Shown here piece by piece: positions 23,823 through 27,014 of a DNA stretch of 64,000 bases. The stretch comes from Haloferax larsenii JCM 13917 (GTDB taxonomy: Archaea > Halobacteriota > Halobacteria > Halobacteriales > Haloferacaceae). The stretch lies in the NCBI RefSeq assembly GCF_000336955.1, contig NZ_AOLI01000009.1, positions 1 to 64,000 on the forward strand, given 5' to 3'. The notes beneath the pieces were generated by a model that was not told the origin of the DNA, did not search any database, and worked only from the letters and a program-made list of their open reading frames with translations. Each line of letters begins with the position of its first letter. The stretch's first letter is position 1. Both the position numbers and the translations under genes were made by a program.

Positions 23823-24533
23823 ATGGCGTCGGGAGGAAATACGGAGACGACTATCGCCGACAAGAAGTCCGAGTTCCAACTCGGGTTAGAAGCACTCAAA
23901 CAACGCGGAAGTGCACTTCTTGTCGTTGGTTCCGTCCCGACTGAACTGTACGCGAGGGCCTCGAAACAGATGCTCGGGGCCCCCGACGAGTCGCGACGCC
24001 GTCTCCTCGTGTTGAACAGTACGACATCGGTGGTGAATCGTCTCGACCCGTCCATCGAACGCTCTACAGAGTGTACCCGGACGATTCGGTATACGGCACT
24101 CGCTCGCGGGACAGCCGCAGCCACCCCGCACGAACCGTCGCTAATCTCTGATTCCTGTGAACGGCACGTCACTGGCGAGATGGGCCAACTCGGTGCCGAG
24201 ATTACGACAGACATCACGGAATTCGACAGACTCGCAAACGGCCTCGACCCGGCCGAACTTCGCGTCGCATTCGACTGCCTTCCAACACTGCTCGAAGAAT
24301 ACGACAAAGAGCACGTCTTTCGGTTCTTGCACGTGCTGACGACGCACGTTCGTTCGAGAAAGGGGATGATTCACGTGTGGTCCCCCGGCAAACGAGACGA
24401 CGTGGTCAACAGAACACTGGAACCGCTTTTCGACGCTGTCGTCGAGCTAACCGTCGATGGGACCGAAGCCAAGCAGCGGTGGCACCTCAACACCGTCGAC
24501 GTATCGTCCGGCTGGTTCGTCCTCGAACCCTGA
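23823..24533 (+). CDS. RecA/KaiC-like signalling protein, DUF7504-like
   Basis: 236 residues from ATG 23823. A hydrophobic strand LLVVGSVPTELYARASKQML stands where a Walker A would be, without an intact GxxxxGKT/S. Later, LRVAFDCLPTLLEEYDKEHV and FRFLHVLTTHVRSRKGMIHVW match the Walker B-like region and helix of a haloarchaeal KaiC/RecA-related family (I think DUF7504). Probably an inactive or non-hydrolysing nucleotide-binding-fold protein. It is followed after 50 bases by the CHAT-like gene on the same strand and is near a HalX regulator, so a signalling role beside the protease is inferred. Confidence 0.72.
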   Translation: MASGGNTETTIADKKSEFQLGLEALKQRGSALLVVGSVPTELYARASKQMLGAPDESRRRLLVLNSTTSVVNRLDPSIERSTECTRTIRYTALARGTAAATPHEPSLISDSCERHVTGEMGQLGAEITTDITEFDRLANGLDPAELRVAFDCLPTLLEEYDKEHVFRFLHVLTTHVRSRKGMIHVWSPGKRDDVVNRTLEPLFDAVVELTVDGTEAKQRWHLNTVDVSSGWFVLEP

Positions 24534-24583: not shown

Positions 24584-26686
24584 ATGGAACAGTCCGGTCT
24601 GGGTGAAGGGTCCGACGCCTCCGTGGGCCTGGAGGTTGGGTTTTCACTCCCGTCAGACAGTGCTGGCCTACTCGTTCGAGACCAAATTGAACGACATCAA
24701 TTCAGGTTGGAAACGCCCGCACCAGTCACTCCCAAACCGGTAGACGAGACCCGATTTTGGTTCCCGACAGACGCCGCAGTCTGCATCGAAACCGACCGCA
24801 TCGACATCGCTGCCAACACGGTCGTCTGCGTTCGCGACGATGCTGGCTCGATGCTTGCACAGGTCGACCAGCGCCGCGCCGAGCAGTTCGGACCGGGAAC
24901 GTACAGTCTCGAACTGTTCGGGCCCGTGAAGACGTATCTCAAAGTCGACGGTCCGTTCACTATCGATGCCAAACCGCTGGAGACGAGCATCTCTCTCGAC
25001 GAATCGCAGGGTGTTCTGGTCGGTGCTCGCTCGTCGCACGAGTCGCCGGCCGCGACTATCACGACGACGGACGACCCGGCAGACGTGATGAAAGCCGTCT
25101 CGGCGTTCAGTTCGGCACTCAAGACGACGAGCGTCGAGCGGTCCTACCCCACACTCAGGGGCCATCCGCCGCTTTTGGAACTCGGAGACGAACTCGATAT
25201 TCCGGAGGGGATGCACGCCGCCGACACCGGCATCCGACTCGAAATCCCGCCGGACCTACGACATATCTTCGTCGTGGCACCGCTCGCGTACTATCTCGGT
25301 GCCGAACTCGTCTCGGGGCCTCGACCGCGACTCGTCACTGACAGCGGTTTCGTTCACGAGTTCGATGGTCCGCGCGCGTTCGAAGACGACGTTGCACGCG
25401 CGCTCAAACAGACGTTTTTCCTCGACTGCGTCGTCCGAACGGAGGGAATCTACGCCGTCGACCTGCACGAACGCGAAGTGGTCGAGTCTCGCCTCGACAT
25501 CGATGCCGAGGCACTGTACGACGCACCGCTTGGAGAGCAACTCAAGGCCTATTTCGACGTCCCATACGAGCAAATCAAGGACCTCGTTCCCGAGTGGAAG
25601 CTGACAACACACGTTGCCCCCCAACCCGACAACGTCGAACTGCTTCCCTTCGTGACGAACGACTTGGCCGTGGTTCGAACACCAGACGGCACGGAAGTCC
25701 CCCACTCGGAAGTCGAGGCGTCGGCCGTAGACGACTTCCTTCGAGACGATATCGTGCGGAGTACGGGGGCGACGACCGGACGAGAGACCTACGTCAAGCC
25801 GCAATCGACCGACTCGGTCGAACAGGCGTGGATTAGCGACGGAACGCCCGTCGGCGCGAGTAAGACGACACCGGCGGCGTATCAGAACAGACTCCAGCGC
25901 AAACCAGCAGACGGTGACATCGGTATAACCGTCGTCTGCAACGACCAGGAGATGTTGGCCGAAAGCGACGTCGTCGACGAGGTGTACGGGTCACGCGAGG
26001 AACTCGCGTTCGACGTCGACGCCCACTACGACCTCTCTCGCGACGAGTTACGCTCGGTCCTTGCAGAACCAACTGACTTCCTGCACTATATCGGTCATAT
26101 CGACGGCGAGGGCTTCCAATGCCGTGATGGGAAGGTCGACGCCGAGACGCTAGACCACGTCGGAACCGGGGCGTTCTTCCTCAACGCTTGTCAGTCGTAC
26201 GACCAGGGACTAGCGCTCGTCGAAGCAGGAGCTATCGGCGGTATCGTCACGTTCAGCGACGTTATCAACAGTCAAGCGGTCGGCGTGGGTCGAACGCTTG
26301 CACGATTGTTGAATACTGGATTCCCACTGCAGACTTCTCTTGATGTCGTCCGAAAAGACAGCGATGTTGCACACCAATACGGTGTTGTTGGTGATGGTGG
26401 AATCTCTGTCGTGCAAACTGAAAATGGAACTGCGGTCCTATGCGAAGTAACCCAAGTAGATAATGATGCGTATCACCTTTCGTATCAAGTGTATCCAACC
26501 TCTCGGTGTGGTCTTGGGTCTCTAATCATTCCGGCATTTCCAAATAATGAGCAGTACTATTTGGGATCGCAGAAAATAAATGGTGTTAATATGACTGAAG
26601 AAGAACTTAGAGACTTCTTATCATTGGAACAGATGCCGATTATCTACGACGACACCATTTACTGGGAAGATGGATTCCTAAGTTGA
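24584..26686 (+). CDS. CHAT-domain (caspase/separase-like) protease candidate, 700 aa
   Basis: From ATG 24584 (frame open upstream, but 24584 follows the previous stop with a fair AT-rich leader). Residues 1 to about 440 are of unknown, mostly beta-rich type. At about 440-600 a CHAT-like fold is suggested by LHYIGHIDGEGF (His505), FFLNACQSYDQG (Cys536) and EAGAIGGIVTFSDVINSQA, which match the catalytic His, Cys and following glycine-rich helix of CHAT proteases. The last about 115 residues are encoded by DNA far poorer in G+C (35-45% in three counted lines) than the rest. No signal peptide or membrane helix, so cytoplasmic. It converges on a 47-residue membrane peptide gene. Protease function is inferred. 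Confidence 0.75.
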   Translation: MEQSGLGEGSDASVGLEVGFSLPSDSAGLLVRDQIERHQFRLETPAPVTPKPVDETRFWFPTDAAVCIETDRIDIAANTVVCVRDDAGSMLAQVDQRRAEQFGPGTYSLELFGPVKTYLKVDGPFTIDAKPLETSISLDESQGVLVGARSSHESPAATITTTDDPADVMKAVSAFSSALKTTSVERSYPTLRGHPPLLELGDELDIPEGMHAADTGIRLEIPPDLRHIFVVAPLAYYLGAELVSGPRPRLVTDSGFVHEFDGPRAFEDDVARALKQTFFLDCVVRTEGIYAVDLHEREVVESRLDIDAEALYDAPLGEQLKAYFDVPYEQIKDLVPEWKLTTHVAPQPDNVELLPFVTNDLAVVRTPDGTEVPHSEVEASAVDDFLRDDIVRSTGATTGRETYVKPQSTDSVEQAWISDGTPVGASKTTPAAYQNRLQRKPADGDIGITVVCNDQEMLAESDVVDEVYGSREELAFDVDAHYDLSRDELRSVLAEPTDFLHYIGHIDGEGFQCRDGKVDAETLDHVGTGAFFLNACQSYDQGLALVEAGAIGGIVTFSDVINSQAVGVGRTLARLLNTGFPLQTSLDVVRKDSDVAHQYGVVGDGGISVVQTENGTAVLCEVTQVDNDAYHLSYQVYPTSRCGLGSLIIPAFPNNEQYYLGSQKINGVNMTEEELRDFLSLEQMPIIYDDTIYWEDGFLS

Positions 26687-26830
26687 TTATGGTCCATAAA
26701 TAACACCTGCACTCCCACCTGCTGCCGCACTACCTGCTTGCGATAGGAGGAGGATCAGCGTGAACAGGGCGCCCATCATCCGGGGATTCTGACGAAGGTA
26801 CGAAACCATCGAGTTGGTGTTGTCGGACAT
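26687..26830 (-). CDS. 47-residue single-span membrane peptide, DUF7503-like
   Basis: ATG 26830 to TAA 26687. A polar N-terminus (MSDNTNSMVSYLRQNPRM) precedes one hydrophobic helix GALFTLILLLSQAGSAA and a short Gly-rich end AGGSAGVIYGP. It matches my memory of a family of tiny haloarchaeal peptides (DUF7503) with an NPRM segment before the helix and a terminal GP. The stop codon abuts the stop of the CHAT-like gene with no base between. It has its own strong TATA element. A membrane-active effector or substrate of the protease is a hypothesis; a signal peptide-like small secreted product is an alternative. Confidence 0.72.
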   Translation of the reverse strand: MSDNTNSMVSYLRQNPRMMGALFTLILLLSQAGSAAAGGSAGVIYGP

Positions 26831-26859
26831 GTACACTTCGTTCGAGGAGCGGCTACAAA

Positions 26860-26867
26860 ATATAAAT
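26860..26867 (-). promoter_or_regulatory. TATA element of the 47-residue peptide gene
   Basis: On the minus strand the sequence reads ATTTATAT, an excellent haloarchaeal TATA box, with its centre about 33 bases before ATG 26830, giving a leader of roughly 5-8 bases. The surrounding 26850-26960 is very AT-rich and otherwise shows no gene. Confidence 0.65.
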
Positions 26868-27014
26868 TTTCGTGTAGTTCTGATATATAATTAACTTAAT
26901 TAAGTCATGTCAATAACACATTAATCGAAGGACAGTAGTCTAAGACCTCTATTACCGAAAGTTGGAAGGAAAAAGCCGCGGAACAGTTCCCGGATCGTTA
27001 TCGCTTCGACCGGT

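Follow-up and report, generated by a model that had tools for sequence, protein, structure and literature searches.

In the RRNPPA systems of Bacillota, which include Rap-Phr and the AimR-AimP arbitrium pair, a short precursor gene adjoins the gene for a cytoplasmic protein. The propeptides have a Sec-type leader and carry the signal at the very C-terminus, some of them carry tandem-duplicated peptides (PMC11343458), and the receptors are TPR proteins of 250-500 aa (PMC10075063). In ComQXPA, polymorphic and co-varying segments of the signal and its receptor define specificity groups (PMC4408185); in ComQXPA, as in agr, the receptor is a membrane kinase and the peptide is modified. A separate body of work concerns proteases with a caspase-like fold and a His/Cys pair, among them SAVED-CHAT, the Craspase TPR-CHAT, the CHAT-gasdermin modules and DdvA. 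Finally, a high caspase-like activity has been described in Haloferax volcanii for which the gene is unknown, and this has been ascribed to a lack of homologues (PMC3615174).

We analyzed a 64,000-nucleotide stretch of Haloferax larsenii DNA (the window) that contains a gene for a CHAT-like protein and, convergent with it, the gene for a DUF7503 microprotein. Like an RRNPPA pair, this locus places the gene for a short putative precursor beside that for a cytoplasmic protein, and the precursor has a similar anatomy, including a tandem form, although that form lacks the hydrophobic leader. Unlike RRNPPA, the larger partner is an archaeal, 700-aa caspase-fold protein that matches no TPR profile, and the two genes converge stop to stop. 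We do not consider the CHAT/DUF7503 pair a member of RRNPPA, though it may work in a similar way. The pair resembles ComQXPA and agr in that segments of the signal and of the putative receptor co-vary and recombine, but it has neither a membrane kinase receptor nor a modified peptide. The best reading of these comparisons is that the CHAT/DUF7503 cassette resembles comQXP, agr and Rap-Phr in its working and is unrelated to them.

With known CHAT proteases, the CHAT-like protein shares the predicted fold and the His/Cys pair. No SAVED, TPR or gasdermin partner was identified (there is no gasdermin gene beside the CHAT-like gene in the window), and the CHAT-like protein has instead its own N-terminal ~430 residues, a variable C-terminal segment and a 47-aa precursor as its partner. 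The window comes from the genus of H. volcanii, where DUF7503 is also present, and the CHAT-like protein is a natural candidate for the enzyme behind the orphan activity reported there. A search of the open-licence literature gave no paper that mentions DUF7503 or DUF7504 by name and none in which ‘CHAT domain’ and ‘haloarchaea’ occur together, and we found there no description of archaeal peptide-based communication or self-recognition. As far as that literature shows, the proposed peptide recognition by way of a caspase-like enzyme would be undescribed in archaea.

The AT-rich 3′ end of the CHAT-like gene

The CHAT-like reading frame begins with an ATG at 24584 and ends with a TGA at 26686. 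A GTG-started version from 24377 was judged too long, because homologs begin at 24584.

24584..26686, + strand: CHAT-like (caspase-fold) cysteine-peptidase-like protein, 700 aa (open reading frame; class-wide family; fold match of residues ~437-604 to CHAT/caspase structures)
26396..26683, + strand: hypervariable, AT-rich, putative C-terminal specificity segment, residues 605-700 (G+C, lower conservation, recombination, covariation with the peptide tail)

The initial annotation of this DNA had pointed to an AT-rich stretch inside the one open frame, with a switch in composition near residue 586. Both observations are borne out. G+C is 42.6% in 26330-26686 versus 60.5% in 24584-26329, third-position G+C is 37.3% versus 70.1%, and the switch lies at residue ~583-590. 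The hand counts given there (27, 21 and 22 G+C per 60-base line) captured the low G+C but were slightly too low; the lines from 26340 hold 29, 28, 27, 22, 22 and 23. Windows of 354 nt with ≤43% G+C make up 0.19% of those within the 64 kb. Over 95 long open reading frames, drawn from the window and from 11 related 14-kb loci, G+C in the last 118 codons changes by a mean of -1.1 points (s.d. 5.0), which rules out a general AT-richness at the 3′-ends of haloarchaeal genes. The ten largest drops in this set all belong to members of the CHAT-like family; the drop is therefore real, well beyond chance and specific to the family.

Homologs of the CHAT-like protein are present in 365 of the 391 Halobacteria genomes searched and relatives in all 15 genomes of the genus, the nearest named one being that of H. 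elongans (95% identity). A 39-residue match in a bacterial bin (L069, a Rhodospirillales MAG; E 1e-4) is probably due to chance or mis-binning. When 57 homologs are aligned, the C-terminus is co-linear and nearly ungapped, its G+C is reduced in every one of them (mean -7.7 points) and its third-position G+C is lower in 52. An alignment check proposed in the initial annotation came out as it had anticipated: the C-terminus varies more than the core, with mean identities among distant members of 0.42 in residues 583-700 versus 0.64 in residues 440-582. For the window gene, the nearest relatives of the core and of the C-terminus both lie in Haloferax. Because the C-terminus is co-linear across the class, lower in identity and closest to Haloferax sequences, it is an old, homologous and fast-changing part of the protein.

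These alignments bear directly on the initial interpretation, in which the C-terminus is a foreign AT-rich module gained by horizontal transfer. The sharp G+C step in the window fits such a module, but a segment that is homologous and ungapped throughout the class, that shows the drop in all 57 homologs, and whose closest relatives belong to the same genus makes this reading hardly credible, and we reject it. Simple replacement also fails by the refuting condition that the initial annotation itself had set, as some alleles of the same C-terminus are closer to normal G+C (67-68% in L028 and L049). Reduced G+C characterizes the family as a whole, so the drop by itself is the wrong evidence from which to infer exchange. 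We would read the AT-richness as a side effect: the segment would undergo continual turnover of alleles, with little tuning of its codons.

Predicted caspase fold and invariant His and Cys residues

The middle part of the protein holds the elements on which its classification depends.

25892..26395, + strand: predicted caspase-fold (CHAT) catalytic core, residues ~437-604 (fold search; invariant His505/Cys536)
26096-26098, + strand: codon of His505 (invariant in 129/129 sequences)
26189-26191, + strand: codon of Cys536 (invariant in 129/129 sequences)

His505, in the motif HYIGH, follows a strand at 497-503, and Cys536, in NAC, follows a strand at 528-533; these are the positions expected for a caspase-type pair. 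When residues 425-700 were modelled (mean pLDDT 63), the structure matched SAVED-CHAT 8tl0 with a Foldseek E of 4.0e-06, and the VIA Z scores were 11.8 for DdvA, 11.6 for SAVED-CHAT, 10.3 for Craspase TPR-CHAT and ~9-10 for caspases, with separase also among the matches. The structural matches span residues ~437-610 and none covers residues beyond ~610. Mean pLDDT values of 54 and 63 give the structure models modest confidence, and the full-length model is poor. At the sequence level, the CHAT-like protein of the window matched no Pfam or NCBIfam family, none of 12 homologs matched a CHAT or caspase profile in these collections, and a PDB sequence search returned one chance match only. Because the sequence profiles do not match, we file the protein by fold only, as a predicted divergent relative of the CHAT/caspase fold (clan CD); the ‘CHAT-like’ of the initial annotation is right at that level. 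The models and the invariant residues suggest a putative caspase-fold cysteine peptidase.

A convergent microprotein with a hypervariable tail

Directly beyond the CHAT-like stop lies a gene that the initial annotation overlooked, and this partner gene, DUF7503, probably explains the C-terminal exchange.

26687..26830, - strand: DUF7503 microprotein, 47 aa, convergent (PF24335 match; same place class-wide)
26717..26830, - strand: signal-peptide/TM-like leader of the microprotein, YLRQNPRMMGALFTLILLLSQAGSAAAG (low per-position entropy, 112 sequences)
26690..26716, - strand: C-terminal tail GSAGVIYGP, hypervariable and a putative peptide, with Gly-Pro at its end (entropy; count of GP ends)

The two stops abut directly in the window (TGA followed by TTA), and the gap is zero in 15/15 Haloferax species. 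Across 114 loci where a microprotein was found, its end lies -20 to +12 nt from the CHAT stop at 98, and all 40 loci fetched later have a convergent microprotein at up to about 125 nt. DUF7503 occurs exactly once in each of 14 genomes of the genus, where the CHAT-like gene is likewise present once per genome. None of the 20 listed CHAT-negative genomes is among the 164 that are DUF7503-positive. Several genomes scored as CHAT-positive and DUF7503-negative, G067, G072 and G076 among them (loci L019, L026 and L024), in fact have a divergent tandem microprotein that escapes the Pfam model. A phylum-wide sample yielded no member of the DUF7503 family outside the order. Some CHAT-like paralogs have no detectable partner microprotein; at L066:9100-11214, a second paralog lies downstream of the first and none of its own was detected. 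One locus (G177:C1:486534-486796) has two tandem DUF7503 genes, with 11 bases separating the matches.

Alignment of the microproteins from their C-termini reveals a conserved leader pattern, YLxxNPRMxGVLFTxxLLLSQAG..AA, followed by a tail in which the seven positions -3 to -9 have entropies of 2.0-3.2 bits. The C-terminal end is GP in 117 of 126 microproteins. Within the g21 clade, mean identity is 93% in the leader and 56% in the tail. About half of the species of genus g17 have, in place of the hydrophobic segment, the tail repeated in 2-14 tandem copies, for example (GNGGGISGP-YTAD)n; such tandem-tail microproteins lie downstream of CHAT at L016, L017, L019, L021, L022, L024, L025, L026 and L030. 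The g17 spacer (Y/F/M)(T/N)AD before GN resembles a caspase-type site. It is plausible from these sequences that the residue before ‘GN’ marks a putative cut site in both precursor forms. This residue would be the Ala after A-x-A in the leader form and the Asp before Gly in the tandem form, and cleavage there is plausible in each.

Allelic exchange of the C-terminal segment

Comparison of close relatives indicates how the C-terminus changes. Over 7 kb, H. gibbonsii (L059) and H. prahovense (L061) share ~98% identity; within CHAT codons ~600-680 this falls to ~69%, with 4-fold silent identity near 0.4. This loss of silent identity points to the import of a divergent allele, not to rapid protein evolution. 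Divergence dies away within the tail of the microprotein, and beyond it the leader and the promoter match exactly once more. Comparison of the window gene with that of H. elongans places a divergence hot spot at the same place. The gibbonsii/prahovense pair has a second short divergent block (72-77% in 100-nt windows) some 1.4-1.5 kb before the start of the CHAT-like gene.

Trees of the core and of the C-terminus reject each other in AU tests. Specifically, a grouping of marisrubri, prahovense and L006 is rejected by codons 1-582 (AU p 6e-10) and supported at 100/100 by codons 605-700, and the tail GNTGVIYGP is identical in these three; the grouping of gibbonsii, prahovense and L006 shows the reverse pattern and is rejected by the C-terminus (AU p 2.5e-4). 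Of 43 disjoint closest pairs, 42 have less silent identity in the C-terminus, with a mean drop of 0.32 (Wilcoxon p 1e-12). By these comparisons, residues ~605-700 are a hypervariable allelic segment exchanged by homologous recombination. The exchange is allelic and inside the family. The initial suggestion of horizontal exchange thus survives as recombination between species in a segment much more variable than the core, and not as the gain of an unrelated or foreign module.

A hypervariable, recombining C-terminus could reflect an arms race with viruses. The C-terminal segment would then be a sensor pressed by viral inhibitors, and the microprotein a guarded or cleaved bait or substrate leading to membrane damage in the manner of CHAT-gasdermin. 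CHAT proteases do act in defence modules, and Craspase and SAVED-CHAT are structural matches here. However, the distribution is near-universal and chromosomal in the class, usually at one conserved locus, and PADLOC gave no defence profile for the CHAT-like protein except a weak JAB match. No relative was found in viral contigs, although a single pattern scan is weak evidence. The conserved GP end and the tandem tails, moreover, suit a ligand better than a pore former. We consider an arms race distinctly unlikely.

Covariation of the peptide tail and the C-terminus

To relate the two hypervariable parts, we compared tail identity with C-terminal identity, corrected for identity of the rest of the protein. 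In pooled close pairs the partial r is 0.53 (within-clade permutation p 0.0002), compared with 0.14 for the core and -0.29 for the leader. Two replication clades fetched after the test was fixed gave 0.46 (g34) and 0.50 (g21), both with p 0.0002; g17 gave 0.53 and Haloferax alone 0.36, such that p≤0.001 in all four clades. Pairs with identical tails keep their C-terminus (86% versus 58%, p 0.0007). The signal is not free of exceptions: the core also correlates with the tail in Haloferax (0.42) and g17 (0.44), leader identity does so in g34 (0.38) and g17 (0.44), and the pairs L086/L088 and L032/L036 have a common tail and different C-termini. Class-wide, a partial Mantel test is weak and unspecific (C-terminus 0.126, p 0.003; core 0.106, p 0.007). 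A clear signal is confined to close relatives, which is what saturation of the distant comparisons would produce. The initial annotation had likened the C-terminus to a variable sensing domain; a sensing or specificity role is plausible, as the segment covaries with the adjacent peptide tail.

Because the tail and the C-terminus are physically adjacent, part of this covariation may be joint transfer without function. Taken to its extreme, this becomes a neutral hot spot, in which a weakly constrained gene end often recombines and joint variation arises from adjacency alone; the lower conservation and lower third-position G+C of the C-terminus and the weak class-wide partial signal would agree with this. 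Yet the leader just past the tail remains conserved, GP and the scaffold residues G603, G645 and W694 are held, and pairs with identical tails retain the C-terminus. Along the protein the signal lies at 590-700, and windows at 630-669 equal or exceed those at 670-700 in all four clades; the absence of an increase on approach to the tail speaks against linkage as the sole cause, although linkage must have a share in the signal. A purely neutral origin therefore seems to us improbable.

A proposed cognate peptide-protease cassette

On balance, the CHAT-like protein and DUF7503 probably form a cognate peptide-protease pair with specificity parts encoded tail to tail, which serves peptide signalling or self-recognition with a proteolytic output. 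Computation gives the linkage and co-occurrence of the genes, the precursor anatomy, the tandem tails, the caspase fold with its His/Cys pair, the recombination of the C-terminus and its covariation with the tail; from these we infer that the peptide is released or exported and recognized by the C-terminus, that the protease is controlled and that there is a biological output. We propose that the two convergent genes, for the CHAT-like protein and for DUF7503, share one exchangeable specificity cassette made up of their 3′ ends. DUF7503 would be the precursor of a short hypervariable peptide that comprises its last ~9 residues and has Gly-Pro at its end. A conserved signal-peptide-like leader would bear this peptide; in one genus the peptide would instead sit, in 2-14 tandem copies, behind a soluble leader. 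The C-terminal segment (~605-700) would recognize the cognate tail, recognition would switch the caspase-fold peptidase on or off, and the pair would thereby act as a peptide-signalling or self-recognition device. The broader proposal is that, across the class, a hypervariable ribosomal peptide from a 47-residue precursor directly controls a caspase-like protease via a recombining specificity domain, and that this archaeal system possibly gives rise to the orphan Haloferax activity; it is more tentative and falls a little short of probable.

Two versions fit the cognate pair: a secreted signal, to which the leader and A-x-A correspond, or a self-marker holding the protease off, to which the tandem cytosolic form corresponds. 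In the second version, the cell’s own CHAT protease would be kept off by the peptide, acting as a cognate inhibitor in the cytoplasm or displayed on the membrane and not as a secreted pheromone. A mismatched or missing peptide after fusion, DNA exchange or infection would free the protease and damage the cell, much as in the incompatibility pairs of fungi, which are polymorphic, or in toxin-antitoxin pairs. Haloarchaea fuse and exchange DNA, the pair is polymorphic and co-exchanged, and the tandem-tail form, which without a hydrophobic leader is a poor fit to simple Sec export, would share the cytoplasm with the protease. Most forms, however, have a signal-peptide/TM-like leader, and its positive-inside pattern predicts that the tail lies outside. 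We regard allorecognition of this kind as unlikely, though worth considering.

Under the cognate-pair reading, most Halobacteria would have a caspase-fold protein paired with a hypervariable peptide precursor, with specificity parts that are exchanged together. Caspase-type proteolysis would be linked to polymorphic peptide recognition outside eukaryotes, and the pair offers a testable ligand and protease in a genetically tractable archaeon.

Promoter and neighboring genes

Upstream of DUF7503 are elements that Haloferax has in common with several other genera, and next to the CHAT-like gene is a second family.

26857..26903, - strand: microprotein promoter region (both elements are repeated in Haloferax loci and in several further genera of the alignment)
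26889-26903, - strand: TTAATTAAGTTAATT element of the microprotein promoter (same recurrence)
26857-26872, - strand: BRE/TATA-like CGAAAATTTATATTTT of the microprotein promoter (same recurrence)
23823..24533, + strand: DUF7504 protein, directly upstream of the CHAT-like gene (PF24336, E 2.9e-54)

These elements give the region upstream of DUF7503 the look of a regulated promoter that includes an operator. A PDB sequence search with DUF7504 gave no relative. DUF7504 lies upstream of the CHAT-like gene in most of 57 loci, a frequent but not universal arrangement; at some loci it is on the other strand or downstream. In the window, the neighbors of the CHAT-like gene are DUF7503, DUF7504, a HalX response regulator and a TrmB regulator.
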